The notes under the pieces are model-generated. The model saw only the letters and a list, made by a program, of their open reading frames with translations, was not told where the DNA came from and did no database searches. A stretch of 34,162 nucleotides of DNA, from contig MGOW01000083.1 of NCBI GenBank assembly GCA_001797255.1, positions 33,752-67,913 of the forward strand. The letters run 5' to 3'. The stretch comes from Clostridiales bacterium GWE2_32_10 (lineage in GTDB: Bacteria > Bacillota > Clostridia > Lachnospirales > UBA12420). This document shows positions 6,733-34,162 of this stretch, one piece after another (within the stretch, counting starts at the first letter, position 1; each line of letters begins with the position of its first letter). Position numbers and translations under genes: made by a program.

Positions 6733-10370
<3,638 letters not shown>

Positions 10371-19204: not shown

Positions 19205-19274
19205 TTTTTTGTTATATTCAAATGTAATAAATCATATATATTTCAATATACTTGTTTTTAAAGAGGTGATAATT

Positions 19275-19697
19275 TTGGCTAAAGAGTATAGGGAAAGTTA
19301 TACAACTGATGATATCAAAAGAAGAATAGACTATTTAAAAAATAGGATAGACTTTGCTGAAAGTAAATATGAAAAATTATACTTTATGGAGTTATTAAGA
19401 CAAGAAGAAACAAAATCAAATCAAGTAGAAGAAGATGAAACTAAAGCTGATAGAACAGCAATGATTACTAAAACAGATCTTACATTAGAACAACTAACAC
19501 AATATGATGGATCAGGAGGCAAACCAGCATATGTAGCGGTAGACGGCATAATTTATGATGTAAGTAGAGAAGGGTCATGGGGAGGAGGTACTCATTTTGG
19601 ACTATATGCTGGGCAAGATTTGACAGAGCAATTTAGCGGATGTCATCAAGCAGGGATTTTAAAGAATCTGCCTATAGTAGGTAGATTGATAAAATAA
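19275..19697 (+). CDS. Cytochrome b5-like heme-binding domain protein
   Basis: TTG start behind AGAGGTGAT (19262-19270), giving 140 residues; an upstream in-frame TTG (19209) lacks a ribosome-binding site. Residues 1-62 are a charged helical region without signal or membrane segment. Residues 65-138 form a bacterial cytochrome b5-like domain: LEQLTQYDGSGGKPAYVAVD, GIIYDVS, then GGTHFG and AGQDLTEQF with candidate axial ligands H107 and H124. The family binds heme b for electron transfer or, in MAPR-like relatives, other ligands. It is the first gene of the hydrogenase operon, 12 bp before the small subunit, which makes it the only candidate electron partner encoded there. Confidence 0.85.
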   Translation: MAKEYRESYTTDDIKRRIDYLKNRIDFAESKYEKLYFMELLRQEETKSNQVEEDETKADRTAMITKTDLTLEQLTQYDGSGGKPAYVAVDGIIYDVSREGSWGGGTHFGLYAGQDLTEQFSGCHQAGILKNLPIVGRLIK

Positions 19698-19709
19698 GGG
19701 GGAATACAT

Positions 19710-20576
19710 TTGGGAAGTGAAATATGTCCTGTAGTGGGTAATAAGCAAAATATTCTCAAAAGTATAATAGATAAGGCAATAAACAATATAGATCAAAATA
19801 AAAAAATAAATTTAATATGGCTTGAGGCTGCAACGTGTTCAGGAAATATAATATCATTATTAAATGCAGAGAACCCAGATGTTATATATTTACTAAGAAA
19901 AATGGTAAATATGACTTATAACAATAGTTTGATGGCAGAGGAAGGGGAAAGAGCTTTTAAAAAATTTTTAGATACATTGGATACAGAGTTTATTCTTGTA
20001 GTAGAAGGTGCTGTTGCTACTAAAAATAATGGATTATACAATGTGATAGCTAGATATAAGGGGAAAACTATAACTGGTATGGATGCAGTAGCTATGGCGG
20101 GGAAAAAAGCAAAATATGTGTTAGCAGTAGGCTCATGTGCATCCTATGGAGGACCATCTGCTGCCAGACCGAATCCATCGGAGAGTAAAAGTGTATATGA
20201 TTTTTTAGATAGAGAAGTTATAAGAGTACCAGGATGCCCAAGTAATCCTCAGTGGGTAATAGGAACGATAGCAAGTATTCTAATTAATGACAACCCAGAA
20301 CTTGATAAAGAAAATAGACCAGTTTTGTTTTACGGAATAACAATACATGACTTGTGCCCAAGAAGATCATATTTTGATAAAGGAATATTTGCAAAAAAGT
20401 TAGGTGAGCCCGAATGTATGTTTAAGTTGGGTTGTAGAGGACCTATTACTAGAACAGACTGTCCTATACGTAGATGGAACAATAGTACAAATTGGCCTAT
20501 AGGAGATAATACTCCATGTATAGGGTGTGCACGAAATGGATTTCCAGATTCTATGGAACCGTTTGTGAGATACTGA
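19710..20576 (+). CDS. [NiFe] hydrogenase small subunit
   Basis: 288 residues, TTG start behind AGGGGGAA. It carries three Fe-S clusters from the NiFe site to the partner. Distal and medial cluster ligands are all visible at the classical spacing: H213, C216, C236, C242 (distal) and C251, C270, C273 (medial, CIGC). For the proximal cluster, C43, C143 (VGSCASYGG) and C176 (PGCPSNP) are present, but the fourth ligand of the CxxC motif is Asn46 (C-S-G-N). There is no Tat signal (no RRxFxK) and no C-terminal membrane anchor, so the enzyme is predicted to be cytoplasmic. The subgroup cannot be fixed by eye. Confidence 0.95.
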   Translation: MGSEICPVVGNKQNILKSIIDKAINNIDQNKKINLIWLEAATCSGNIISLLNAENPDVIYLLRKMVNMTYNNSLMAEEGERAFKKFLDTLDTEFILVVEGAVATKNNGLYNVIARYKGKTITGMDAVAMAGKKAKYVLAVGSCASYGGPSAARPNPSESKSVYDFLDREVIRVPGCPSNPQWVIGTIASILINDNPELDKENRPVLFYGITIHDLCPRRSYFDKGIFAKKLGEPECMFKLGCRGPITRTDCPIRRWNNSTNWPIGDNTPCIGCARNGFPDSMEPFVRY

Positions 20577-20590
20577 TAGGGGGGGGTAAA

Positions 20591-21997
20591 ATAGAAAAGA
20601 TAGTTATTAATCCACTTACAAGAATAAGTGGATTTTTGGAAATAGAAGTTACTATAGATAATCATAAAATAATAGATGCTAAAAGTAGTGGAATGATGTA
20701 TAGGGGATTTGAAAAAATGTTACAGGGTAGACCACCATTAGATGCAATATACTTTACTGAAAGGATATGTGGTATATGCTCTACAGCTCATTCTGTTGCT
20801 TCTGCTCATGGATTAGAAGATGCACTAAAAGTGATTCCTACTCCTAATGATGAAATGGTTAGACAGATAATACATGGGTGTGAATTTTTACAAAATCATT
20901 TGAGACATTTTTATCAATACACATTTCCTGACTATGTAAATGGACCACAGATAAATCCTTTATACAAAGAGTCTCAAGGAGATTACAGGTTACCAGAAAA
21001 TCTTAATAAGACATTAAGCATACATTACTTAAAATCCATTGAATATAGTAGGTCTGCTCACAAGATGCTTGCTATACTTGGTGGGAAAGCTCCTCACAAT
21101 CATGGTGTTTTTGTTGGGGGAGTTACTGTAAACATGAATGCAGACAAATTTATAGAACTAAAGTCAATATTATCATCTATAAAAGCTTTTATAAATAACA
21201 TAATGGTGCCAGATGTTAATATTATTGCTGAATATTATAAAGATTACTTTGAGAATGGAAAAGGCTTTGAAAACCTTATGAGTTATGGTGTATATAATCA
21301 ATATATTGATAAGCCTTTTAAGTATGTTGAACCTGGGGTACTAATAAATAATAAAAGGTATAAGTTTGACAAGGATAAAATAACAGAAAATATATATCAT
21401 GCTTGGTATATAGCAGATGAAGTAAATATAAAGCCTGAGGAAGGATATGTAGAATCAGATGTTTCTAAAAAAGACGGTTATAGTTTTATAAAAGCTCCTA
21501 GATATGCCGGATATGGAGTAGAGGTAGGACCATTGGCTAGGATGTACTTGAGTGGAGAGTATACGAGAGGTATTTCTACTATGGATAGAACTATTGCTAG
21601 GGTATTAGAGGTAAGTAAAATATGCAATATACTAGAGCATCTGTTAAAAAAGATAAAACTTGAACCTACATCTCAAAAAATATATGAGGTTCCAGAACAG
21701 GCGAAGGGAATTGGACTTATAGATACTACAAGAGGTTCGCTTGGACATTGGATAGCTATAGGAGATAAAAAGATTAAAAACTATACTATCATAACACCAT
21801 CAGCTTGGAACTTATCACCAACAGATTCAAACGGAGTTAAAGGTGTAGTAGAAAAAGCACTGATGGGAACATATGTGAAAAATGAACAAAATCCAGTAGA
21901 AATAGGAAGAATTGTTAGATCGTTTGACCCTTGTGTCTCATGTGCCACCCATATTACAAGCGATAGATATAAAGATATAAGTATAAAAATAACGTAG
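20591..21997 (+). CDS. [NiFe] hydrogenase large subunit with apparent AUA start
   Basis: The catalytic subunit that holds the NiFe(CN)2CO site. The N-terminal motif is RICGICSTAHS (C60, C63) and the C-terminal motif is DPCVSCATH (C448, C451, H454), followed by a 14-residue tail that a maturation protease should remove. The conserved family N-terminus (EKIVINPLTRISGFLEIEV) begins at ATA 20591, preceded by a run of eight Gs that would serve as Shine-Dalgarno. There is no in-frame ATG, GTG or TTG nearer than GTG 20525 and ATG 20516, which lie inside the small-subunit gene and would add over 20 unrelated residues. I chose ATA on conservation and spacing; the upstream ATG is the fallback. Length 468 residues is complete. 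Confidence 0.9.
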   Translation: MEKIVINPLTRISGFLEIEVTIDNHKIIDAKSSGMMYRGFEKMLQGRPPLDAIYFTERICGICSTAHSVASAHGLEDALKVIPTPNDEMVRQIIHGCEFLQNHLRHFYQYTFPDYVNGPQINPLYKESQGDYRLPENLNKTLSIHYLKSIEYSRSAHKMLAILGGKAPHNHGVFVGGVTVNMNADKFIELKSILSSIKAFINNIMVPDVNIIAEYYKDYFENGKGFENLMSYGVYNQYIDKPFKYVEPGVLINNKRYKFDKDKITENIYHAWYIADEVNIKPEEGYVESDVSKKDGYSFIKAPRYAGYGVEVGPLARMYLSGEYTRGISTMDRTIARVLEVSKICNILEHLLKKIKLEPTSQKIYEVPEQAKGIGLIDTTRGSLGHWIAIGDKKIKNYTIITPSAWNLSPTDSNGVKGVVEKALMGTYVKNEQNPVEIGRIVRSFDPCVSCATHITSDRYKDISIKIT

Positions 21998-22453
21998 ATG
22001 ATAAAAATTATAGCTTTAGGAAATGTATTAATGATGGATGATGGGGTTGCTATAAAAGTGTTAAATAATATAGAAAAGAGTGTGTTTTCAATTGATAAAA
22101 ATATAGAAGTAATATATGGAGAAACAGATTTTGTATATTGTTTAAACAAAGTAAGTGATGGTGATTGTATAATAATAATTGATAGTTCATATTTTGAATT
22201 AGAACCTGGTACTATTACATTAAAAAATCTTAATAAGTTTGACTGCAAACTAGTTAGACCAAGCTCACAACATCAAATAAGCTTTATTGATATGATTAAA
22301 GATTATAAAAATAATATAGAAGCATATTTCATTGCTATAGAAATATTAAAAGTTGATTTTGGAGCAAGCTTTTCTAATGAGATTAATAGTATGTTTGAAC
22401 ATATATGTAGGGAAGTCTTAGACAAGATTAAATATATTGTAGCTAGTAAGTAA
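21998..22453 (+). CDS. Hydrogenase maturation protease
   Basis: 151 residues, starting on the base after the large-subunit stop (TAG-ATG), so probably translationally coupled. It matches the HyaD/HybD/HycI endopeptidase family that clips the large subunit's C-terminal tail after nickel insertion: GNVLMMDDG (8-16), D61 (IIIIDSS) and H91 (SSQHQISF) are the expected Ni-sensing residues, with Asp at the position that is often Glu. Its substrate is almost certainly the neighbour, whose tail begins after H454. Confidence 0.92.
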   Translation: MIKIIALGNVLMMDDGVAIKVLNNIEKSVFSIDKNIEVIYGETDFVYCLNKVSDGDCIIIIDSSYFELEPGTITLKNLNKFDCKLVRPSSQHQISFIDMIKDYKNNIEAYFIAIEILKVDFGASFSNEINSMFEHICREVLDKIKYIVASK

Positions 22454-22463
22454 GGAGGAAATA

Positions 22464-22811
22464 ATGCATGAAGTTTCTATAGTATCAGACATGCTAAACA
22501 TTGTTTATGAAAATGTACAATTACATAACATGAAAAGTATAAACAAAATAGTAATTAAAGTAGGTGAGTTTACATGTATTAACGAAAGTAGTTTAAGATT
22601 TGCATATGAATGTTTATGTAAAAATACAATATGTGAAAATGTTAAATTAGAAATAAAAAAAATAAAAGCAAGTGCCTACTGTAATAATTGCAGAAAAATA
22701 TTTAATATAAGCTATACAAATAGAGTCTGTCCGATATGTAACAAGTTTAGTAAAAATGTTGTTACAGGGGATGAATTAACAGTAGATAGCATAGAAGGAG
22801 AACAAAAATGA
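22464..22811 (+). CDS. hypA: Hydrogenase nickel incorporation protein HypA
   Basis: 115 residues with ATG behind AAGGAGG. HypA delivers nickel to the large subunit together with HypB. The N-terminal MHE (H2, Ni ligand) and the zinc site (CNNC at 73-76, CPIC at 89-92) are intact. Its stop overlaps the HypB start (ATGA). Confidence 0.96.
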   Translation: MHEVSIVSDMLNIVYENVQLHNMKSINKIVIKVGEFTCINESSLRFAYECLCKNTICENVKLEIKKIKASAYCNNCRKIFNISYTNRVCPICNKFSKNVVTGDELTVDSIEGEQK

Positions 22812-23473
22812 AAAGTATAGTAATAGAAAAAAACATATTAAAAAATAATAATGAAATTGCATCAAAGATCAGATCTGCTTTGAATGATAAAGGAATATAC
22901 ACAATAAATATGATAGGATCTCCTGGTTCAGGGAAGACATCAGTACTCGAACAAATAATAAAGCATATTAATAGAAAATTTAACATAGCTGTTATAGAAG
23001 GGGATTTATATACTACAAAAGATGCTGAAAGAATTGAAAATCAGGGCATTAATGTAGTACAGCTTAATACGGAAGGTGCTTGTCACCTTGATGCGAACAT
23101 GATTGAACAAGCATTAGACTGTATAGATATAAATAATGCAGATCTTTTAGTTATAGAAAATGTAGGAAACTTAGTGTGTCCAGCTTCTTATGATTTAAGT
23201 GAAGATAGTAAGATTTTGGTTATGAGTGTAACAGAAGGACATGACAAACCGCTCAAGTATCCATCTATGTTTCAAAAGGCAGAGGTATTAATATTAAATA
23301 AAATTGATCTAGTTAGATATACTAATTTTGATATTGGTGACTTTTATAAAGACGTGAAGTCGTTAAATGAACATATACATATATTTGAAATATCATGTAC
23401 ATCTGGCAAAGGTGTACAGAAATTGTGTGATTATTTAGAAGGACAAATAATGAGTAAAGGAGTGAATAGATAA
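22808..23473 (+). CDS. hypB: Hydrogenase nickel incorporation GTPase HypB
   Basis: 221 residues. This GTPase drives nickel transfer to the large subunit. The P-loop GSPGSGKT (37-44), VIEGDLYTTKDAERI, the metal-binding TEGACHLD (Cys-His) and NKIDLV are visible. It lacks both the N-terminal CxxCGC motif and the His-rich nickel-storage stretch seen in some HypBs, so it is the minimal form. It overlaps hypA by 4 bp. Confidence 0.96.
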   Translation: MKSIVIEKNILKNNNEIASKIRSALNDKGIYTINMIGSPGSGKTSVLEQIIKHINRKFNIAVIEGDLYTTKDAERIENQGINVVQLNTEGACHLDANMIEQALDCIDINNADLLVIENVGNLVCPASYDLSEDSKILVMSVTEGHDKPLKYPSMFQKAEVLILNKIDLVRYTNFDIGDFYKDVKSLNEHIHIFEISCTSGKGVQKLCDYLEGQIMSKGVNR

Positions 23474-23474
23474 A

Positions 23475-25736
23475 ATAGAAAATACTATTAGGAAATATAT
23501 ACTAATAAAAGGGGTTGTTCAAGGAGTAGGGTTTAGACCTTATATATATGTAAAAGCACTAGAAAATAATTTAAAAGGATGGGTAAAAAACACTAGTGAT
23601 GGTTTGTATATAGACATTGAGGGCAAAGAAGAAGATATAGGCATACTTTTGAATAATATAAAGACTAAACCACCTCAATTATCTAAGATTAATGAAATAC
23701 AAATTGAAGATAAGAAAGTAGTGAACTATGAAAAGTTTAATATTTTAAAAAGCAATGCTGAGGTTAATGCTATAACATTAATTTCACCAGATACAGGAGT
23801 ATGTGAGGACTGCATAAAGGATATAACAGATATGAAGAATAGACGATACAAATATCCCTTTACAAACTGTACAAATTGTGGTCCAAGGTTTTCTATAATA
23901 AAAGACTTGCCGTATGATAGAGAAGCTACATGCATGAACCAGTTTATAATGTGCAATGAATGCAGAAAAGAGTATGAGAATCCTTTAGATAGAAGGTTTC
24001 ACGCTCAGCCAACTGCTTGTCCAATATGTGGACCACAGATAGAGCTTGTTGACAATGAGGGAAATAAAATCAAGTCTCTAGGTATTGCAAAGAAAGTTCC
24101 AAATCTCATCGGGCAAGGTTTTATTCTTGCAATAAAAGGATTAGGAGGTTTTCATTTAGCATGCAATGCTAAATGCGAAGATGTAATACAAAAACTTAGA
24201 ATTAGAAAAAAAAGACCTACCAAGCCATTAGCATTAATGATGAAGGACATAGAAACTGTAAAAAAATTTTGTCATGTTAGTCATATAGAAGAAAAAATAT
24301 TATGTAGTGAAAGAAAGCCTATCATATTATTAAATAAGAAAAATGATTTACTGCCATATAATATAGCACCACATAATAAGAGACTAGGAATTATGCTACC
24401 TTATACTCCATTACATCATCTGTTATTTGATGAAGGGATAGATGTTTTAGTTATGACGAGTGCAAACAAGAATAGTATGCCTATAATTTATAAAAACGAT
24501 GATGCAATACATAATTTGAAAGATATTGCAGATTACATACTTATCCATAATAGAGACATACATATCCCTATTGATGATTCAGTTAGCATGGTAGTTTTAC
24601 ATGAAGAAAGAGTGCTAAGAAACTCTAGAGGATATGCACCTATAAATGTTAAGCATTCTATGACACACGACATATTAGCAAGTGGGTCCCATCTAAAAAA
24701 CACATTTGCAATATCAAAAAAAGATAACGTTTTTATAAGCCAATATATAGGGGATGTTGAAAATACAGAAACCTGTGATAGAGTTAATATGCTAGTAAAA
24801 CATTTTAAAAACGTCTATAACATAAATCCAGAACTCATAGTGCATGACATGCATCCTAATTACTGGTCAAAAGAATACGTAAAGACACATGACAGTAATA
24901 ATATAGAGGTGCAACATCATCACGCACATATAGTAAGCTGCATGGTTGAAAATGAGGTAAAGGATAGAGTAATAGGAATAGCCTATGATGGCAGTGGATA
25001 TGGAGCAGATAAGAAAATGTGGGGCGGAGAGTTTTTAATATGTGATTATGCCAGTTTTAAAAGAGTAGGGCACTTGAACTATGTATGCATACCTGGGGGA
25101 GAGTCAGCGATAAAAGAACCTTGGAGGATGGCTATAAGCTACTTACATAAAGTATTTGGTAATAATTTAGATGAAAACTTACCTAATTTATTCAAAGGTA
25201 AAGATGTAAAAAATGTAAAAACTATTATAAACAGTAACATAAATATAATAGATACATCCAGCGTAGGAAGACTTTTTGATACTGCAGCAGCTATTTTGGG
25301 TTTTATGGAAGAGGTAACATATGAAGGTGAAGCCGCGATATTTCTAGAACATATATGTGATGAAAACGAAAAAGAAAGTTATACATATGACGTAGAATAC
25401 GTAGATGATGTGTATATTATAAACACTAATAATATTTTAAAAGGATTGCTGTCTGATTTAGGAGACAAGATTTCTAGAAGCTTAATATCAAGAAGATTTC
25501 ATAATACTGTAATAAACTTTTCAGTACATTTATGCGAACTAATATCAGGTAAATATGATATTAATAAAGTTGCATTAAGTGGAGGAGTATTTCAGAATCA
25601 AATAATATTAAGAGAAATTTATAAAAAACTAATGTTGAAAGGGTTTGAGGTATATACTCACAAACTAATACCATGCAATGATAGTGGAATATGCCTTGGA
25701 CAAATAGTAATAGCAAATGAGAGATGTAAGGAGTGA
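23475..25736 (+). CDS. hypF: Carbamoyltransferase HypF with apparent AUA start
   Basis: HypF makes the thiocarbamate precursor of the cyanide ligands with HypE. From ATA 23475 the protein is 753 residues, the normal length: acylphosphatase domain with VVQGVGFRPYIY; zinc fingers CEDC, CTNC, CNEC and CPIC; a YrdC-like domain; and a Kae1-like domain with VQHHHAHIVSCM. The first canonical in-frame start is TTG 23604, which would delete the catalytic VQGVGFRP loop of the acylphosphatase domain. The frame is open back to TGA 23463-23465, with only ATA and ATT as possible starts. AAAGGAG (23457-23463) precedes ATA 23475 by 11 nt. The start context TAAAATAGAAAA is identical to that of the large-subunit gene. 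Confidence 0.92.
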   Translation: MENTIRKYILIKGVVQGVGFRPYIYVKALENNLKGWVKNTSDGLYIDIEGKEEDIGILLNNIKTKPPQLSKINEIQIEDKKVVNYEKFNILKSNAEVNAITLISPDTGVCEDCIKDITDMKNRRYKYPFTNCTNCGPRFSIIKDLPYDREATCMNQFIMCNECRKEYENPLDRRFHAQPTACPICGPQIELVDNEGNKIKSLGIAKKVPNLIGQGFILAIKGLGGFHLACNAKCEDVIQKLRIRKKRPTKPLALMMKDIETVKKFCHVSHIEEKILCSERKPIILLNKKNDLLPYNIAPHNKRLGIMLPYTPLHHLLFDEGIDVLVMTSANKNSMPIIYKNDDAIHNLKDIADYILIHNRDIHIPIDDSVSMVVLHEERVLRNSRGYAPINVKHSMTHDILASGSHLKNTFAISKKDNVFISQYIGDVENTETCDRVNMLVKHFKNVYNINPELIVHDMHPNYWSKEYVKTHDSNNIEVQHHHAHIVSCMVENEVKDRVIGIAYDGSGYGADKKMWGGEFLICDYASFKRVGHLNYVCIPGGESAIKEPWRMAISYLHKVFGNNLDENLPNLFKGKDVKNVKTIINSNINIIDTSSVGRLFDTAAAILGFMEEVTYEGEAAIFLEHICDENEKESYTYDVEYVDDVYIINTNNILKGLLSDLGDKISRSLISRRFHNTVINFSVHLCELISGKYDINKVALSGGVFQNQIILREIYKKLMLKGFEVYTHKLIPCNDSGICLGQIVIANERCKE

Positions 25737-25740
25737 TTTT

Positions 25741-25959
25741 ATGTGCATAGCAGTACCAGCTAAAGTTTTATCGATTGATAAGAACAATGCAGTTGTATGC
25801 TTTGAAGGTGTTAAAACGAATGCTAATGTTGAATTAGTGGGTGACTTGAAAACAGGTGATTATATTTTGTTACATGCAGGGTGTGCTATACAAAAAATAA
25901 ACGAAGTAGAAGCTAAAAAAACATTAGAAGTATTTAAACAAATGTTAGAACAAGATTAA
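25741..25959 (+). CDS. hypC: Hydrogenase assembly chaperone HypC
   Basis: 72 residues. The frame opens at 25717 inside hypF, but AAGGAGTGA places the start at ATG 25741, which exposes the essential N-terminal MC (MCIAVPAKV). HypC carries the Fe(CN)2CO unit with HypD and hands it to the large subunit. It follows hypF by 4 bp. Confidence 0.95.
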   Translation: MCIAVPAKVLSIDKNNAVVCFEGVKTNANVELVGDLKTGDYILLHAGCAIQKINEVEAKKTLEVFKQMLEQD

Positions 25960-25979: not shown

Positions 25980-27068
25980 ATGAATTATGTAGATGAGTTT
26001 GTAAAAGAAGGGTTAGTAGAAAATATATTAAAAAAGATTAGAAGTTCAGCAATAAGAGATATAAAAATAATGGAGGTATGTGGCACTCACACGATGGCAA
26101 TAATGAAATATGGAATAAAAGATTTACTACCACAAAATATAAAACTTATATCAGGACCAGGCTGCCCTGTATGTGTCACATCACAAGGGTACATAGATAC
26201 GGCAATAGAATTATCATATGAAGATAATATTATAATAGCTACTTTTGGAGATATGATGAAAGTTCCTGGAACAAATAGCTCTCTCAAAATAGAGAAGGCT
26301 TTAGGTAGAGATATTAGAGTAGTATATTCGCCAATACAATCACTTGAGATTGCAAAACAAAATCCTGAAAAAGAGATTGTATTTCTGGGTATTGGATTTG
26401 AGACAACAGCTCCTATTATAGCACTAAGCATATATAAAGCAAAGAATGAAAATATAAATAACTATTTTGTGCTAAATAGTATAAAAACGATGCCTAACAT
26501 TATTCAAAAACTAATAGTAAACAAGAATGTTAATATAGATGGATTTATACTTCCTGGGCACGTAGCATCAATAATAGGACACAAGCCTTTTTGTTTTATA
26601 GGTAAAGAATATAATATACCAGCTGTGATAACTGGATTTGAACCTTTAGATATATTATATGCACTATATCAAGTTGTAAGGGATGTTAAATATGGTAAGT
26701 GTAAAGTTGAAAATTTATATAGTAAAGTAGTTGAATATGAGGGGAGCAGAAAAGCTAAAGAAATAATCAATAAAGTTTTTATCCCATCAGACAGTAACTG
26801 GAGGGGATTAGGCAACATAGAAAATACGGGACTAAAAATTCTAGAGGGATACAAAGAGTTTGATGCAGAAAAAAATTTTAAAATAGTTATAAAAGAACAG
26901 TTAGCACAAACACAATGTATATGTGGTGATATTTTAAAAGGTGTAAAAGACCCTTTAGAGTGCAAAATGTTCTCAAAAATATGTAGCCCATCTAATCCAT
27001 TAGGACCTTGTATGGTATCTCTTGAAGGTGCATGTGCAGTATATTATAAATATGGTTTAAGGAGGTAA
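25980..27068 (+). CDS. hypD: Hydrogenase formation protein HypD
   Basis: 362 residues, the usual length, ATG start behind AGAGGTGA. HypD is the 4Fe-4S scaffold on which Fe(CN)2CO is built. Visible motifs: VCGTHT (C34), GPGCPVCVT (C62, C65), GFETTAP, and the C-terminal Cys set CICGD...CKMF...C...GPCMVS for the cluster. Confidence 0.96.
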   Translation: MNYVDEFVKEGLVENILKKIRSSAIRDIKIMEVCGTHTMAIMKYGIKDLLPQNIKLISGPGCPVCVTSQGYIDTAIELSYEDNIIIATFGDMMKVPGTNSSLKIEKALGRDIRVVYSPIQSLEIAKQNPEKEIVFLGIGFETTAPIIALSIYKAKNENINNYFVLNSIKTMPNIIQKLIVNKNVNIDGFILPGHVASIIGHKPFCFIGKEYNIPAVITGFEPLDILYALYQVVRDVKYGKCKVENLYSKVVEYEGSRKAKEIINKVFIPSDSNWRGLGNIENTGLKILEGYKEFDAEKNFKIVIKEQLAQTQCICGDILKGVKDPLECKMFSKICSPSNPLGPCMVSLEGACAVYYKYGLRR

Positions 27069-27071
27069 CAC

Positions 27072-28079
27072 ATGAATATAATCACTTTAGAACATGGAAA
27101 TGGTGGAGAATACACTCATGAATTAGTAAGGAACTTATTTTACAAACACTTTCAAAATGAACTATTGATGCAGCAAAGTGATTCTAGTATTTTAGGTAAC
27201 ATTGGCGGAAAACTTGCGGTTACAACAGACTCATTTGTAGTAGACCCTATTTTCTTTCCAGGTGGGGATATAGGTAAGCTATCTATTTGTGGAACAGTAA
27301 ATGATTTAGCAGTAGTAGGTGCAAAACCTTTGTATATTACAGCAGGATTTATAATAGAAGTAGGACTACGTATTGATATTCTAGAAAGAATAATTATATC
27401 AATGGCAAATACAGCAAAGGAAGCTAATGTAAAAATAGTTGCAGGTGATACAAAAGTGGTAGGAAAAGGAGATGTAGACAAAATATACATAAATACAACA
27501 GGAATAGGTGTTATAGAAGATAATACGCTATATATGAACTCAAGCAATATTGTCGAAGGAGATAAAGTTATATTAAGTGGGACAATAGGGGATCATGGAA
27601 TGTGTGTAATGAGTAAAAGAGCAGAATTTGATTTTGATACTGATATAGAAAGTGATTGCAGCTTATTGCATATATTAGTAACAGATATATTAGAGGTAAG
27701 CGAAAATGTAAGAATTATAAGAGATCCAACAAGAGGTGGAATAGCCACAACATTAAATGAATTTATAGAAAATACACAGATGAGTATTGTTTTAAATGAA
27801 GAATATATTCCAGTTAGGAGTAATGTTAAAAGCATGTGCAAAATGATAGGATTAGATCCGTTATATATAGCAAACGAAGGAAAGATTATATTAATTGTAT
27901 CAACCAAAGATGCAGAAAAAATATTGGAAGTTATGAAAAGAAATAAATTAGGATTAGAGTCTAGGATTATAGGGGAAGTAATAGGGGATAATCGAAATAA
28001 AGTATATTTGAAAACTGAAATAGGAGGAACTAGAATATTAAATATGTTAGAAGGAGATTTGCTACCTAGGATATGCTAA
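27072..28079 (+). CDS. hypE: Carbamoyl dehydratase HypE
   Basis: 335 residues, 3 bp after hypD, ATG start behind AAGGAGG. HypE dehydrates the carbamoyl group to a thiocyanate on its last residue. It ends in PRIC, with the required C-terminal Cys335. The AIRS/PurM-type core is clear: HGNGGEYTH near the start, CGTVNDLAVVGA, AGDTKVV and RDPTRGGIATTLNE. It is the last gene of the operon; the dispersed element at 28127 follows. Confidence 0.96.
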   Translation: MNIITLEHGNGGEYTHELVRNLFYKHFQNELLMQQSDSSILGNIGGKLAVTTDSFVVDPIFFPGGDIGKLSICGTVNDLAVVGAKPLYITAGFIIEVGLRIDILERIIISMANTAKEANVKIVAGDTKVVGKGDVDKIYINTTGIGVIEDNTLYMNSSNIVEGDKVILSGTIGDHGMCVMSKRAEFDFDTDIESDCSLLHILVTDILEVSENVRIIRDPTRGGIATTLNEFIENTQMSIVLNEEYIPVRSNVKSMCKMIGLDPLYIANEGKIILIVSTKDAEKILEVMKRNKLGLESRIIGEVIGDNRNKVYLKTEIGGTRILNMLEGDLLPRIC

Positions 28080-28391: not shown

Positions 28392-28430
28392 CGGAAAAAT
28401 AAATATAACATATTGTAGAGGATGATAAAA

Positions 28431-28793
28431 ATGAAAAAAATATTGAATGTAACAAATGCACTATCGGAAGAAATAAGACTTAGGATAATAAATATATTGT
28501 TTCAATCGAATTTATATGTTTGTGAAATGGTAGATATATTGGAGTTACCACAATCAACTGTATCAAGACATCTTACAATACTGAAAAATGCTGACATTGT
28601 AGAAGATGCTAAGAATGGTTTATGGGTTAGATATTCGCTAAATAAAAACAGAATATATGATACTATTATAAAAAATTTAGTTGCAGAAGAACTCACAAAT
28701 GTGCAAAAATGTAAGGAAGATTTGCAGAAATTAAAAAAGCGACTTGAAAAGGGTAGAGGATGTAAAGACAATTGTAAAGGAGGTATAGTATGA
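28431..28793 (+). CDS. arsR: ArsR-family metalloregulator
   Basis: The frame includes ATG 28422, but AGAGG (28417-28421) fits ATG 28431, giving 120 residues. It is a winged-helix repressor (SEEIRLRIINILF, then LPQSTVSRHLTILKNADIV and DAKNGLWVRYSL). The helix that in classic ArsR carries ELCVCDL reads NLYVCEM, with only C31, and two more Cys lie near the end (GCKDNC), so the metalloid site differs from the E. coli type and may combine C31 with the C-terminal pair. It overlaps the permease gene by 4 bp and sits behind a consensus promoter with an operator-like palindrome. Confidence 0.9.
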   Translation: MKKILNVTNALSEEIRLRIINILFQSNLYVCEMVDILELPQSTVSRHLTILKNADIVEDAKNGLWVRYSLNKNRIYDTIIKNLVAEELTNVQKCKEDLQKLKKRLEKGRGCKDNCKGGIV

Positions 28794-29794
28794 GTATATT
28801 TAACATTTTAAATGATCAAATTTTAAAAATGCAATGGCTTAGTGATATTACAAAATTATTTGTTGAGAAGGTACTCAATCTACCTGTACAGAGTAAAATA
28901 GGCGGCGCAATTCACTTTTTTATATATGATACTGTTAAAATATTTATTCTATTATCTGTTTTAATATTTTTAATGTCATATATACAAAGCTACTTTCCAC
29001 CTGAAAGAACCAGGAAAATACTAGGGAAATTTAAAGGAATTGCAGGTAATATAATGGGAGCTTTGCTTGGAACGATTACTCCGTTTTGTAGTTGCTCAAG
29101 TATACCTATATTCATAGGTTTTACATCTGCAGGATTGCCATTAGGGGTTACATTTTCTTTTCTTATATCGTCACCGCTTGTAGATATAGCCTCATTTTTA
29201 GTATTATTAACATTCTTTGGAGTTAAAATTGCTATAGCTTATGTTGTAGTAGGGATTATACTTGCAGTTGTTGCAGGAATTATTATAGAAAAGTTGAATC
29301 TTGAGGATCAAATACAGGATTATGTTAGAAAAATTGGTAGCCCTAATCTTGAAGCAGAGGAGTTGACTAAAAGAGCAAGAGCAATATATGCAGTAGGTGA
29401 AGTGAAAAGTATAGCTAAAAAAGTGTGGATATATATTTTAATTGGTGTTGGTATTGGAGCTGCAATCCATAACTTCATACCACAAGAAGTGATCGATAAT
29501 GTAGTAGGGTCTAATAATCCATTTGCAGTAATACTTGCAACATTAGTGGGAATACCAATGTATGCAGATATATTTGGTACTATACCAATAGCTGAAGCAT
29601 TATTTGCAAAGAATGTAGGTATAGGAACAGTACTTGCCTTTATGATGGCAGTAACTGCGTTATCACTTCCATCTATGGTGATGATTAGTAGAGTAGTAAA
29701 ACCGAAGTTACTTACAATATTTATATCGATAGTTATAGTAGGCATAATATTTATTGGCTATTTGTTTAATATATTTTCATATTTATTAATATAA
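28790..29794 (+). CDS. arsP: Permease of the ArsP / DUF318 family
   Basis: 334 residues with about eight hydrophobic segments in two halves joined by a cytoplasmic loop (about 155-205). The signature TPFCSCSSIP (C100, C102) lies in the first half and PMYADIFGTIPIAEAL in the second. The family includes ArsP, which exports trivalent organoarsenicals such as methylarsenite, and less defined permeases, so the gene symbol is provisional. In an operon with ArsR and ArsM, methylarsenical export is the best inference. Confidence 0.8.
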   Translation: MSIFNILNDQILKMQWLSDITKLFVEKVLNLPVQSKIGGAIHFFIYDTVKIFILLSVLIFLMSYIQSYFPPERTRKILGKFKGIAGNIMGALLGTITPFCSCSSIPIFIGFTSAGLPLGVTFSFLISSPLVDIASFLVLLTFFGVKIAIAYVVVGIILAVVAGIIIEKLNLEDQIQDYVRKIGSPNLEAEELTKRARAIYAVGEVKSIAKKVWIYILIGVGIGAAIHNFIPQEVIDNVVGSNNPFAVILATLVGIPMYADIFGTIPIAEALFAKNVGIGTVLAFMMAVTALSLPSMVMISRVVKPKLLTIFISIVIVGIIFIGYLFNIFSYLLI

Positions 29795-29816
29795 TTTAAA
29801 ATGAAAGGGGTAATGA

Positions 29817-30059
29817 ATGATGAATATAAAAATATTAGGAACAGGATGTGCTAACTGCAAGAAGTTAACTGGGTTAGTTGAGGAAGCAGTAAAGGAACTA
29901 AATGCAGATGTTGAGATACAGAAGGTAGAGGATATACAAAAAATAATGGAGTATGGTGTCATGAGAACACCAGCTATTGTTATTAATGAGAAAGTAAAAG
30001 CATTTGGGAGAATACCAAGTAAAGAAGAAATAAAGGAATATATAAAAGAAGAAGTTTAA
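29817..30059 (+). CDS. Thioredoxin-like small redox protein
   Basis: 80 residues, ATG behind GAAAGGGG. The CANC motif (C11, C14) right after the first strand and the RTPAIVINEK cis-Pro loop place it in the glutaredoxin-like/thioredoxin group of archaeal and anaerobe proteins (TM0996/MTH895 type). Next to DUF318 permeases such proteins are common; it may reduce arsenicals or supply thiols for ArsM. A second ATG at 29820 is equally possible. Confidence 0.88.
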   Translation: MMNIKILGTGCANCKKLTGLVEEAVKELNADVEIQKVEDIQKIMEYGVMRTPAIVINEKVKAFGRIPSKEEIKEYIKEEV

Positions 30060-30086
30060 AACAAATATAATTTCAGGAGGTATAGC

Positions 30087-30878
30087 ATGTCTAATAAAAA
30101 AGAAGAAATAAAAGATTATATTCGTAAAAGCTATGGAAGTATTGCGTTATCTAAAGGTTCAGGATCATGTTGCAGTGGAGGATGTAGTTGTAATGGGCAA
30201 AGTGATATAAAAGAAATATCTATGAATCTTGGTTATAATGAGGGGGATATTACTGAGATACCTACAGGAGCAAATATGGGACTTGGTTGTGGTAATCCTA
30301 TTGCTATAGCAGCGATTAAAGAGGGGGAGACAGTCCTTGATTTAGGAAGTGGGGGAGGATTTGACTGTTTTTTAGCAAGAAGAAAAGTAGGAGAAATAGG
30401 TTTAGTAATAGGTGTAGATATGACACAAGAAATGATAAAGTTATCAAGAGAAAATGCAGAAAATGCTGGATACAATAACGTAGAATTTAGACTTGGTGAA
30501 ATTGAACATTTACCAGTATCAGACTCATCTGTAGATGTTATTATATCAAATTGCGTAATTAACTTATCAAGTGAGAAAGAAAAAGTGTTTAAAGAAGCTT
30601 ATAGAGTTCTAAAACAAGGTGGAAGACTATCCATATCAGATGTTGTTGCTACAGCAGAGCTACCACCAAATATAAAACAAGACTTGTACATGATGGCAGG
30701 GTGTATTGCAGGTGCAGAATATGTAGAGGATATTAGGAAGATGTTAGAGAATGTAGGATTTAAGGATATAAAATTAGAGCCTAAGGACAATGGAAAAGAG
30801 ATAGTTAAGTCTTGGGTGCCAGATAAAAATATAGAAGATTATGTAACTTCATATATAATTGAAGCTAGAAAAGTATAA
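30087..30878 (+). CDS. arsM: Arsenite S-adenosylmethionine methyltransferase ArsM
   Basis: 263 residues, ATG behind AGGAGG. ArsM methylates As(III) with S-adenosylmethionine in the cytoplasm. The three conserved Cys are present (C68 in LGCGNP, C156 in ISNCVINLS, C206 in MAGCIAGAE), as is the SAM-binding LDLGSGGGFDCFLA. The N-terminus has an extra cluster of four Cys (CCSGGCSC, residues 28-35), common in ArsMs of anaerobes. It is the last gene of the ars operon. Confidence 0.95.
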   Translation: MSNKKEEIKDYIRKSYGSIALSKGSGSCCSGGCSCNGQSDIKEISMNLGYNEGDITEIPTGANMGLGCGNPIAIAAIKEGETVLDLGSGGGFDCFLARRKVGEIGLVIGVDMTQEMIKLSRENAENAGYNNVEFRLGEIEHLPVSDSSVDVIISNCVINLSSEKEKVFKEAYRVLKQGGRLSISDVVATAELPPNIKQDLYMMAGCIAGAEYVEDIRKMLENVGFKDIKLEPKDNGKEIVKSWVPDKNIEDYVTSYIIEARKV

Positions 30879-31040: not shown

Positions 31041-31066
31041 AAGATTTATATAAGGGGATGGGTAGA

Positions 31067-34000
31067 ATGGGTGAGTTATTTACAAACGAAGAGAAAATAG
31101 GGAAAAATTTTATGGCAGGAACAATGAAAATGATGGATGGGAATCATGCAGCCGCTCTAGCATCATATGCATTTACAGAGGTAGCGGCAATATATCCAAT
31201 AACACCATCAACGCCAATGGCAGAAAATGTAGATGAATGGTCTGCTAAAGGAAAAAAGAATATTTTGGGGCAGCAAATTAAAGTTGTAGAGATGCAATCA
31301 GAAGCTGGAGCCGCAGGAGCAGTTCATGGGGCACTTGTTGCAGGAGCACTCACAACTACATATACGGCATCGCAAGGATTACTACTCATGATTCCTAATA
31401 TGTATAAAATGGCTGGAGAACTTTTACCTGCGGTATTTCATGTAAGTGCACGTGCAATTGCAACGCATGCACTATCTATTTTTGGAGACCACCAGGATGT
31501 AATGGCTACGAGACAAACAGGCTTTGCACTTCTTGCAGCTTCAAATGTACAAGAAGTAATGGATATGGCAAATGTTGTACATCTAGCTGCGATTAAATCA
31601 AGAATTCCTTTTTTACATTTTTTTGATGGATTCAGAACGTCACATGAATACCAAAAGATTGAAGTGATCAGTCAAGAAGATGTTGCCAAACTTGTAGATT
31701 ATGAGGCAATTAAAGAGTTTAGAGAACGTTCACTAAATCCAGATCATCCAAGCTTAAGGGGTACGGCACAAAATCCTGATATTTATTTCCAAGGAAGGGA
31801 GGCTTCAAATAAGTTTTACGTAGGAGTTCCTGATGTTGTTGAAAACTATATGAGAGAAATTGAAAAAATTACAGGTAGAGCGTATCATCCTTTCGATTAT
31901 TATGGGGCACAAGATGCAGAGAATATTATTGTAGCTATGGGCTCTGTCTGTGATACAATTGAGGAGACAATAGATTATGTAGGAAACAAGGGAGAGAAAG
32001 TAGGAATGATAAAGGTGCATTTATACAGACCTTTTTCACCTGATTATTTCTTCAAGGTGTTTCCGAAAACTGTTAAAAAGATTGCAGTGCTCGATAGAAC
32101 AAAAGAACCAGGTTCAATAGGTGAGCCATTGTACCTAGATATATCGAAGTTATTTTATAATTATGCTGAAAAACCAGTAATTATCGGTGGGAGGTACGGA
32201 CTAGGATCAAAAGATACGAGACCATCACAAATCATTGCTGTGTTTGATAATTTAAAGCAAGAGCAACCTAAAAATAACTTTACAATTGGTATCGTAGATG
32301 ATGTAACTAATACATCATTGCCCGAAGGAGATGTAATTGAAACGACACCAGAAGGAACTTTTAGCTGTAAATTCTGGGGACTCGGTTCTGATGGTACAGT
32401 CGGAGCAAATAAAATGGCTGTACAAATTATTGGTGAAAATACAGAACTTTATGCACAAGCATATTTCTCATACGATAGCAAAAAATCAGGAGGGAGTACA
32501 GTATCACATTTGAGGTTTGGTAAGAATCCTATAAGATCACCATATTTGGTTTATAATGCAGATTATATTGCTTGCCATAATAAATCTTTTCTATACAATC
32601 AGGATATTTTAAAAGGGTTGAAAAATGGCGGTATTTTTGTTTTAAACTGCCCCTTTAATGAGGCAGAACTAAACGATAAACTTCCAGCTCAATTTAAAAA
32701 ATATATTGCATTAAATAATATTCAGTTTTATATGATTGATGCTGTATCAATTGCACAAGACTTAAAGCTTGGTGGAAGGATTAATATGATCATGCAAGCT
32801 GTATTCTTTAAGTTAGCAAACATTATCCAGATAGACAAGGCAGTAGAGTTAATGAAAAAGTCTGTAGAGAAGACATACGGTAGCAAAGGTGAGGAAATAG
32901 TAGAGTCGAACAAGAATTCAATTGACAAAGGAATTGAACAGATTATTAAAGTGAATGTTCCGGCTGAATGGGCTGATCTAGAAGATGAAAAGTCTGAAGC
33001 TACGGGGCTTCCTGACTTTGTGACAGATATCCAATTCCCTATGGCAAGACATCAGGGGGATGAACTGCCTGTAAGTGCCTTTAATGGAAGAGAAGATGGA
33101 ACCTTCCCTCTTGGGACAACTGCTTATGAAAAACGTGGAATTGCTGTAATGATACCAGAGTGGCAAACAGATAAATGTATTCAGTGTAATCAATGTTCAT
33201 ACATTTGCCCACATTCGGTTATACGTCCATTTTTGCTAAATGAAGAGGAGAAACACAAGGCACCTGATGGATTTGAAACAAAGAAGCCAATAGGTAAAGG
33301 ATTAGAAAATCTATACTATAGAATTCAAATAAGTCCTCTTGATTGTACAGGATGTGGAAACTGTGCGGATATTTGTCCTGCTAATGGAAAAGCTTTGGTT
33401 ATGAAGCCTGCGGAGGAAGAAATTGATGCAGAGGCAGATAACTGGAACTTTGCAATGACTGTAACTGATAAACAAGATTTAGTAGATATAAAAACATTAA
33501 GAGGAAGTCAATTTGCAAGACCTTTAATGGAATTCAGTGGTGCATGTCCAGGATGTGGAGAAACGCCTTATATCAAGCTACTTACTCAACTCTTTGGAGA
33601 TAGGATGATGATTGCAAATGCTACAGGATGTTCATCAATTTGGGGCGGTAGTGCACCATCTATTCCATATACAGTTAATGCATCAGGGAAAGGGCCTGCA
33701 TGGGGAAATTCGCTATTTGAGGATAATGCCGAATATGGATACGGAATGTTTCTTGGTATAAGTCAAATACGTGAAAAATTGGATACACTGATAAAAGAGG
33801 CACTTAGTCAACCAATCAATGAAAAATTAAAGGATGCTTTTAAAGAATGGATTGACGGTATATACAATGGAGAAAAATCTGAAGAAGCAACTTCGAAAAT
33901 ACTAGAAGTAATAAAAGATGAAAATATAGAAAACACTCCTATCTTAAAAGAAATCATAGAAAGAAAGGATTATCTCACTAAGAAATCTCATTGGATAATC

Positions 34001-34162
34001 GGTGGAGATGGGTGGGCATATGACATCGGATTTGGAGGAGTTGACCAAGTATTGTCTACTGGTGACGATGTAAATATTTTCGTCATGGATACGGAGATGT
34101 ATTCAAATACAGGAGGTCAAGCTTCAAAATCTACACCAGTGGCATCTGTGGCAAAATTTGCT
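31067..34162 (+). CDS. nifJ: Pyruvate:ferredoxin oxidoreductase, PFOR-2, truncated by window end
   Basis: ATG start behind AAGGGGATG; the frame stays open for 1032 codons to the last base of the window, so roughly 140 residues are missing. It is a clear paralogue of PFOR-1: [29 protein letters not shown] (from C704), [12 protein letters not shown] (from C760), [21 protein letters not shown] and MYSNTGGQ are all present. Compared with PFOR-1 it has an extra N-terminal stretch (GELFTNEEKIGKNFMAG) and differs through the linker regions, so the duplication is not recent. It might be used under different conditions or for another 2-oxoacid. Confidence 0.96.
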   Translation, partial: MGELFTNEEKIGKNFMAGTMKMMDGNHAAALASYAFTEVAAIYPITPSTPMAENVDEWSAKGKKNILGQQIKVVEMQSEAGAAGAVHGALVAGALTTTYTASQGLLLMIPNMYKMAGELLPAVFHVSARAIATHALSIFGDHQDVMATRQTGFALLAASNVQEVMDMANVVHLAAIKSRIPFLHFFDGFRTSHEYQKIEVISQEDVAKLVDYEAIKEFRERSLNPDHPSLRGTAQNPDIYFQGREASNKFYVGVPDVVENYMREIEKITGRAYHPFDYYGAQDAENIIVAMGSVCDTIEETIDYVGNKGEKVGMIKVHLYRPFSPDYFFKVFPKTVKKIAVLDRTKEPGSIGEPLYLDISKLFYNYAEKPVIIGGRYGLGSKDTRPSQIIAVFDNLKQEQPKNNFTIGIVDDVTNTSLPEGDVIETTPEGTFSCKFWGLGSDGTVGANKMAVQIIGENTELYAQAYFSYDSKKSGGSTVSHLRFGKNPIRSPYLVYNADYIACHNKSFLYNQDILKGLKNGGIFVLNCPFNEAELNDKLPAQFKKYIALNNIQFYMIDAVSIAQDLKLGGRINMIMQAVFFKLANIIQIDKAVELMKKSVEKTYGSKGEEIVESNKNSIDKGIEQIIKVNVPAEWADLEDEKSEATGLPDFVTDIQFPMARHQGDELPVSAFNGREDGTFPLGTTAYEKRGIAVMIPEWQTDKCIQCNQCSYICPHSVIRPFLLNEEEKHKAPDGFETKKPIGKGLENLYYRIQISPLDCTGCGNCADICPANGKALVMKPAEEEIDAEADNWNFAMTVTDKQDLVDIKTLRGSQFARPLMEFSGACPGCGETPYIKLLTQLFGDRMMIANATGCSSIWGGSAPSIPYTVNASGKGPAWGNSLFEDNAEYGYGMFLGISQIREKLDTLIKEALSQPINEKLKDAFKEWIDGIYNGEKSEEATSKILEVIKDENIENTPILKEIIERKDYLTKKSHWIIGGDGWAYDIGFGGVDQVLSTGDDVNIFVMDTEMYSNTGGQASKSTPVASVAKFA

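Follow-up and report, generated by a model that had tools for sequence, protein, structure and literature searches.

How does a [NiFe] hydrogenase exchange electrons when the only redox protein encoded beside it is a soluble cytochrome b5-like protein? This question is raised by an operon in a 34,162-nucleotide stretch of DNA from Clostridiales bacterium GWE2_32_10 (contig MGOW01000083.1; hereafter, the window). A preliminary description of the window had placed the small and large subunits (HydS and HydL), a protease and all six Hyp proteins in one operon lacking any redox gene other than that for the b5 protein. Both points were confirmed: Pfam and TIGRFAM matches identified every component, with the Hyp genes in the order HypA, B, F, C, D and E to position 28079 (Table 1), and a search around 38 homologous loci found no other recurring redox gene, which rules out another conserved redox partner nearby. 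The b5 gene is the first gene of the operon, and the 12-bp gap between it and the HydS gene was as described, as were the positions of the candidate axial ligands His107 and His124. The source genome (G000), a 92%-complete assembly with 104 contigs totalling 1.87 Mb, contains a single b5-domain gene and a single small subunit of the HydS type. An Rfam search of the window yielded no RNA match. Elsewhere in the window, Pfam matches and protein reading identified two pyruvate:ferredoxin oxidoreductase genes (6837-10370 and 31058-34162, the second running past the window end), and an arsenic-type cluster of ArsR, ArsP-type permease, thioredoxin-like and methyltransferase genes lies downstream of hypE (28422-30878).

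Table 1. Features of the hydrogenase operon and its upstream region (window coordinates)
Feature	Position	Strand	Remarks
Candidate sigmaE-like -35 element, TTATATT	19212..19218	+	Score 10.0; dinucleotide-shuffle p=0.02
Candidate sigmaE/sigmaK-like -10 element, CATATATA	19233..19240	+	14 bp downstream of the -35 element
Hydrogenase-linked cytochrome b5-domain protein, 140 aa	19275..19697	+	PF00173, 1.4e-9; TTG start preceded by AGAGGTG
N-terminal helical hairpin of the b5 protein, residues 11-65	19305..19469	+	AlphaFold2 helices 11-27 and 31-65; weak IMEF_Flp match, E=0.011
b5 domain, residues 67-140	19473..19694	+	Best Foldseek matches 6nzx, 6vz6, 4hin
His107, candidate axial ligand, in [ST]HF/YG	19593..19595	+	Kept in intact linked b5 proteins
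Cys123-His124, His124 being the second candidate axial ligand	19641..19646	+	CH here, PH in lipoprotein-type b5 proteins
HydS, [NiFe] small subunit, 288 aa	19710..20576	+	TTG start; no Tat signal; PF14720, TIGR00391
HydS Asn46 at the second proximal-cluster Cys position	19845..19847	+	N/E/Q/D in 59/59 readable homologues
HydL, [NiFe] large subunit frame	20516..21997	+	PF00374, 6.8e-110; putative start near 20588
HycI/HyaD-type maturation endopeptidase	21998..22453	+	TIGR00072
hypA	22464..22811	+	TIGR00100
hypB	22808..23473	+	TIGR00073
hypF	23604..25736	+	TIGR00143
hypC	25717..25959	+	TIGR00074
hypD	25980..27068	+	TIGR00075
hypE	27072..28079	+	TIGR02124

The two subunits have the features of group 1 [NiFe] hydrogenases, namely the L1 and L2 Cys pairs in HydL (RICGIC and DPCVSCATH, followed by a 14-aa C-terminal extension), the C-terminal domain of the small subunit (PF14720, 5.9e-32, together with PF01058 and a TIGR00391 match above the cut-off) and intact ligands of the distal (H213, C216, C236 and C242) and medial clusters (C251, P263, C270 and C273). 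The four-Cys motif of the proximal [4Fe-4S] cluster is usual in group 1 and not universal, group 1h having been reported with Asp. In HydS it is incomplete, the second Cys being replaced by Asn46, and all of the 59 readable homologues have N, E, Q or D at this position, with or without a b5 gene. Loss of the proximal Cys was therefore rejected as a trait specific to the b5-containing clade, because relatives without b5 likewise carry N, D or E. At the level of sequence, these enzymes thus deviate consistently from four-Cys coordination of the proximal cluster.

The best solved relatives of HydS are the periplasmic [NiFeSe] and [NiFe] hydrogenases 4kl8, 1cc1 and 1frv (E about 1e-66). The medial and distal cluster ligands match those of these enzymes, from which HydS differs in having no Tat export signal, in Asn for the second proximal Cys and in being paired with a b5 protein rather than cytochrome c3. 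The actinobacterial-type hydrogenase of Ralstonia eutropha (5aa5), in which Asp is a proximal ligand, also has a non-Cys residue at the equivalent position, but this is Asp rather than Asn and the match is far weaker (130 bits versus 227 bits for 4kl8). Neither an RRxFxK motif nor a hydrophobic segment is present at the N-terminus of HydS, in agreement with the preliminary description, and a short conserved KCPI...SK segment is found there. In this respect, HydS departs from HydDB group 1a, which is characterized by a Tat signal and a periplasmic location, and because this signal is missing, the enzyme is very probably cytoplasmic. For HydL, the only standard in-frame start codon is ATG at 20516, which would overlap hydS by 61 bp, and none is present at ~20588; eight consecutive G occupy the region where homology begins (20570-20600), whereas L003, the closest relative, reads GTG there. 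Therefore, either HydL uses an unusual start or the assembly is wrong by 1-2 bases.

The b5 protein combines the profile and the fold of family PF00173. Residues 70-138 match the profile (E=1.4e-9; 38.3 bits, the cut-off being 23.7), and AlphaFold2 predicted a helical hairpin (residues 11-65) followed by a b5 domain (residues 67-140) with a pLDDT of 75. In a Foldseek search, 6nzx (4.9e-6) and 6vz6 led the matches, followed by bovine b5 (2.7e-4), and a sequence search was concordant. The nearest solved relatives of the domain in both sequence and fold are thus archaeal b5-domain proteins, from a member of the Hadesarchaea (6nzx) and from Methanococcoides burtonii (6vz6). They differ from the window protein in that the crystallized domains have neither the N-terminal hairpin nor the CH motif, and they are not known to be linked to hydrogenases. 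The two conserved His residues of the window protein are 17 residues apart and HPGG is absent; the His-His spacing in microsomal b5 is 24. Both His residues, and the Cys preceding the second (F..CH), are kept in the intact hydrogenase-linked b5 proteins (about 30), one deviating sequence (L080) having CGYH for the CH motif. Secreted lipoprotein-type b5 proteins from the same class have PH at this place, which defines the linked proteins as a distinct CH-type, hydrogenase-associated b5 subfamily.

Several of the b5 proteins carry additional regions. In the hydrogenase-linked protein of L080 (7368-9059, +), two b5 domains flank a long PG-rich repeat of the collagen-like kind known from some spore-surface proteins, and the b5 protein of L117 contains a G/T-rich repeat region. 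In L098 (8899-9717, -), a rubrerythrin domain (PF02915, 6.5e-13) forms the N-terminus of a linked b5 protein encoded immediately upstream of HydS. The b5 protein of Clostridium cibarium (L124:7092-8135, +), whose hydrogenase operon has no b5 gene, contains DUF5661 and a ferritin-looking N-terminus. The hairpin of the window protein gave an IMEF_Flp match with E=0.011 and Foldseek matches to encapsulated ferritins with E>1; these are too weak to identify it as ferritin-like, and we retain that identification only within one of the alternatives discussed below. An AlphaFold2 model of b5 and HydS as one chain, in which the b5 stop codon TAA was read as Q as a linker device only, reached a pLDDT of 56, too low to be informative about docking.

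To place the linkage in a wider context, a HydS profile was searched against a phylum sample, relatives of the source genome and a class sample, and the DNA around the best matches was extracted and its genes mapped. In a tree of 60 HydS sequences, a long branch (0.51; 99% support) sets 22 sequences without b5 apart from the remaining 38, including that of the window. Within the clade of 38, the b5 gene is in the operon in 33 cases (including one broken copy and one copy moved behind the protease gene), elsewhere in the genome in four (G508, G820, G731 and C. cibarium G822) and was not found in the one remaining carrier genome searched (G402). Homologous operons that generally lack the b5 gene, which the preliminary description had named as speaking against a dedicated partnership, are therefore not what this clade contains. 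Among the genomes of the class sample, a b5 gene is present in each of the 21 that encode this hydrogenase and in 16 of the 370 that do not (Fisher p=4e-25), although here and below the relatedness of the genomes causes p-values to overstate independence. No HydS of this kind was found in the 16 b5-only genomes, one of which (G691) has its b5 gene beside a large-subunit fragment and probably represents an incomplete operon.

Individual loci provide further evidence. In a finished, one-contig genome, b5 and HydS are naturally fused into one protein of 440 aa (L083:7896-9218, +). In L086, the b5 gene has moved to a place behind the protease gene, and a genome whose linked b5 gene is interrupted by two stops (G681) has an intact copy elsewhere. 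The b5 core and HydS have similar mean identities (56 and 58%), and their distances are correlated (r=0.79), as is also expected from vertical inheritance alone. Taken together, these data make it highly probable that the b5 protein is a dedicated partner of the hydrogenase. Outside the clade, a CH-type b5 gene (L123:6676-7023, +) was observed ~1.2 kb upstream of an outer-clade hydrogenase (G043), with a methyltransferase gene and a reversed protease gene in between.

Whether the partner carries electrons is a separate matter. Ferrochelatase is clear in only 4 of the 36 carrier genomes, and AhbD-like matches of >300 bits occur in about nine of the 36, all under the AhbD cut-off; in the 92%-complete source genome, a search for ferrochelatase and AhbD found neither. 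A recognizable last step of heme synthesis is thus absent from most carriers, and therefore either heme would have to be scavenged or the b5 pocket is not a heme site. We give slightly better than even chances to the b5 protein being a heme-bound electron carrier. The cytoplasmic b5-linked hydrogenase of the preliminary description stands in part: the partnership is supported by synteny, co-occurrence, fusion, relocation and unlinked copies, and the cytoplasmic location by the missing Tat signal, whereas the role of b5 as the electron partner is one that we infer, given the rarity of last-step heme synthesis genes in the carriers. Less probably, the b5 protein acts in maturation or heme sensing, as had also been proposed.

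The DNA upstream of the operon suggests when it may be expressed. CATAnnnT boxes, read by eye, recur ~40 bp ahead of the b5 starts, and promoters were scored with our own scorer for KMATATT-N13-16-CATACANT, a consensus for sigmaE. In Clostridioides difficile, sigmaE and sigmaK promoters have a common -10 element and the -35 element of sigmaE is of the ATA type (PMC3789822); the sigmaK -10 sequence cited there, CATATAAT, occurs as an octamer in L006 and L089. The window contains the candidate TTATATT-N14-CATATATA (19212-19240; p=0.02), and thus both an ATA-type -35 and a CATA -10 element lie near the operon start. A score of at least 9.5 was obtained for 9 of the 33 linked b5 genes, the set in which the motif had first been spotted by eye, versus 13 of 399 promoters taken from these loci as controls (p=7e-6); in a GC-matched subset, the counts were 9/23 versus 10/282. 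Two of the control matches are themselves first genes of hydrogenase operons (the protease gene in L066 and hypB in L098); when operon starts are counted with these included, the ratio is 11/38 versus 11/397 (p=2e-7). In two sets that played no part in forming the idea, a sigmaE-like site precedes 5 of the 9 unlinked CH-type b5 genes and none of the 11 lipoprotein-type genes. Strong sigmaA-like sites were found at none of the 33 linked b5 genes, as opposed to 59 of the 399 controls. Good sigmaE-like sites are absent from many GC-richer members.

All of the 36 carrier genomes tested contain spoIVA, compared with 257 of the 370 class genomes without the hydrogenase, so that in this sample the enzyme is restricted to spore-forming genomes as judged by spoIVA. 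Culturable species, for example Tepidibacter mesophilus and Anaerophilus nitritogenes, are among the carriers. On the basis of these motifs and genomes, the operon is probably expressed during sporulation. The promoter arrangement resembles that of the mother-cell promoters of the C. difficile sigmaE regulon, which includes an iron-only hydrogenase, CD3258; this, however, is an [FeFe] enzyme with no reported b5 partner, unlike the [NiFe] enzyme of the window (PMC3789822). In Clostridium acetobutylicum, the [NiFe] genes mbhSL, possibly outside the window clade, are expressed throughout stationary phase and hydA in exponential phase (PMC2530871). No paper was retrieved by a literature search that combined hydrogenase with spore coat. 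Some unlinked CH-type Clostridium b5 proteins (L103, L104, L106 and L117) have an extra C-terminal domain; several of their genes have near-consensus sigmaE promoters, and some lie beside queuosine-type genes.

These observations can be read in other ways. The same synteny and tree evidence would serve a hydrogenase for ordinary stationary-phase or vegetative H2 uptake, with b5 as its dedicated electron partner and the sigmaE-like motifs as chance matches in AT-rich DNA. The many members without a good site, and the presence of spoIVA in 71% of the class anyway, suit such an enzyme, but the enrichment over 399 controls holds after GC matching (9/23 versus 10/282) and extends to unlinked CH-type b5 genes, and strong sigmaA-like sites are absent; we thus regard this explanation as credible but unlikely. 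Doubtful, and somewhat more so, is a location of the enzyme and b5 in the spore or its coat, where, having been made by the mother cell, they would support an H2-dependent redox activity of dormant spores, such as reduction of peroxide, O2 or metal; some of the b5 proteins carry collagen-like or other repeats. It is slightly more doubtful still that b5 serves as a maturation or assembly factor, or as a structural adaptor or scaffold of the small subunit, and carries no electrons. A non-redox role of this kind would fit the scarcity of heme synthesis in the carriers, the PG-rich and G/T-rich repeat regions of the L080 and L117 proteins and a hairpin without strong likeness to any redox protein. 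However, both candidate axial His residues, which would be needless without a metal or heme, are kept in about 30 linked proteins, the natural fusion leaves b5 on the mature subunit, and the Hyp set and protease are already complete.

The rubrerythrin domain of the L098 protein, together with the faint ferritin-like hints in the window hairpin, would be in line with protection of spores or cells by H2-driven reduction of peroxide or O2 at a diiron ferritin-like centre, to which b5 would relay electrons from the hydrogenase. We consider this improbable, because L098 is a single clear case and the hairpin matches are non-significant. Finally, mostly vertical inheritance within one clade might have carried b5 along beside hydS as a functionally unlinked passenger. 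Such a passenger would hardly be retained after relocation and when unlinked, be fused to HydS once, be absent from the neighbouring hydrogenase clades and co-occur with the enzyme in 21 of 21 genomes, and the idea was ruled out as very improbable indeed.

The reading that we prefer, to which as a whole we give even chances, is a cytoplasmic group-1-type [NiFe] module with b5 as its electron acceptor and with sigmaE/sigmaK-dependent expression in the mother cell. The module would be self-contained and characteristic of endospore-forming Clostridia and related Firmicutes. HydL would split H2, and electrons would pass through the Asn-containing proximal cluster and then the medial and distal clusters of HydS to the b5 protein, a soluble carrier or adaptor in the role that a cytochrome b or c plays for exported relatives. 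The helical hairpin may dock or oligomerize b5, which would hand the electrons on to a further acceptor. The operon, with its full maturation set, would be transcribed during sporulation from the sigmaE/sigmaK-type promoter.

A b5 gene beside a group 1a hydrogenase is described in passages of a 2022 paper on Clostridium carboxidivorans, Clostridium drakei and Clostridium scatologenes (PMC9431212), where these acetogens are said to have incomplete heme synthesis genes and enzymes without a Tat signal, and where clostridial enzymes of similar description are assigned to HydDB group 1a. As in the window, an adjoining b5 gene accompanies HydS-HydL without a Tat signal, and by that description the enzymes can be compared with, rather than assigned to, the window clade. 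The passages treat b5 as occurring in only three species and link it neither to sporulation nor to a fusion or a hydrogenase clade. The clade-wide b5 link, the fusion, the CH subfamily and the sporulation promoters thus go beyond those passages. The preliminary description, in turn, had mentioned neither a sporulation-type promoter nor the confinement of the enzyme to spore formers nor Asn46 of the proximal cluster.

Our reading would account for the functioning of a [NiFe] hydrogenase that is widespread in clostridia yet has no export signal, no membrane anchor and neither a ferredoxin nor a flavin partner, and it would add a cytochrome b5-domain protein to the electron partners of hydrogenases. 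The non-Cys proximal residue provides a natural variant for hydrogenase biochemistry. H2 is reportedly an electron donor for spores of Desulfotomaculum reducens. Metal reduction by these spores is attributed in PMC5520028 to a study by Junier et al. (2009), and the spore-associated location, if true, would make the enzyme a candidate for this activity. If the link to sporulation is true, these hydrogenases would be developmental genes rather than vegetative energy enzymes, which would alter their interpretation in genome surveys, and the use of H2 by spores would become directly testable.
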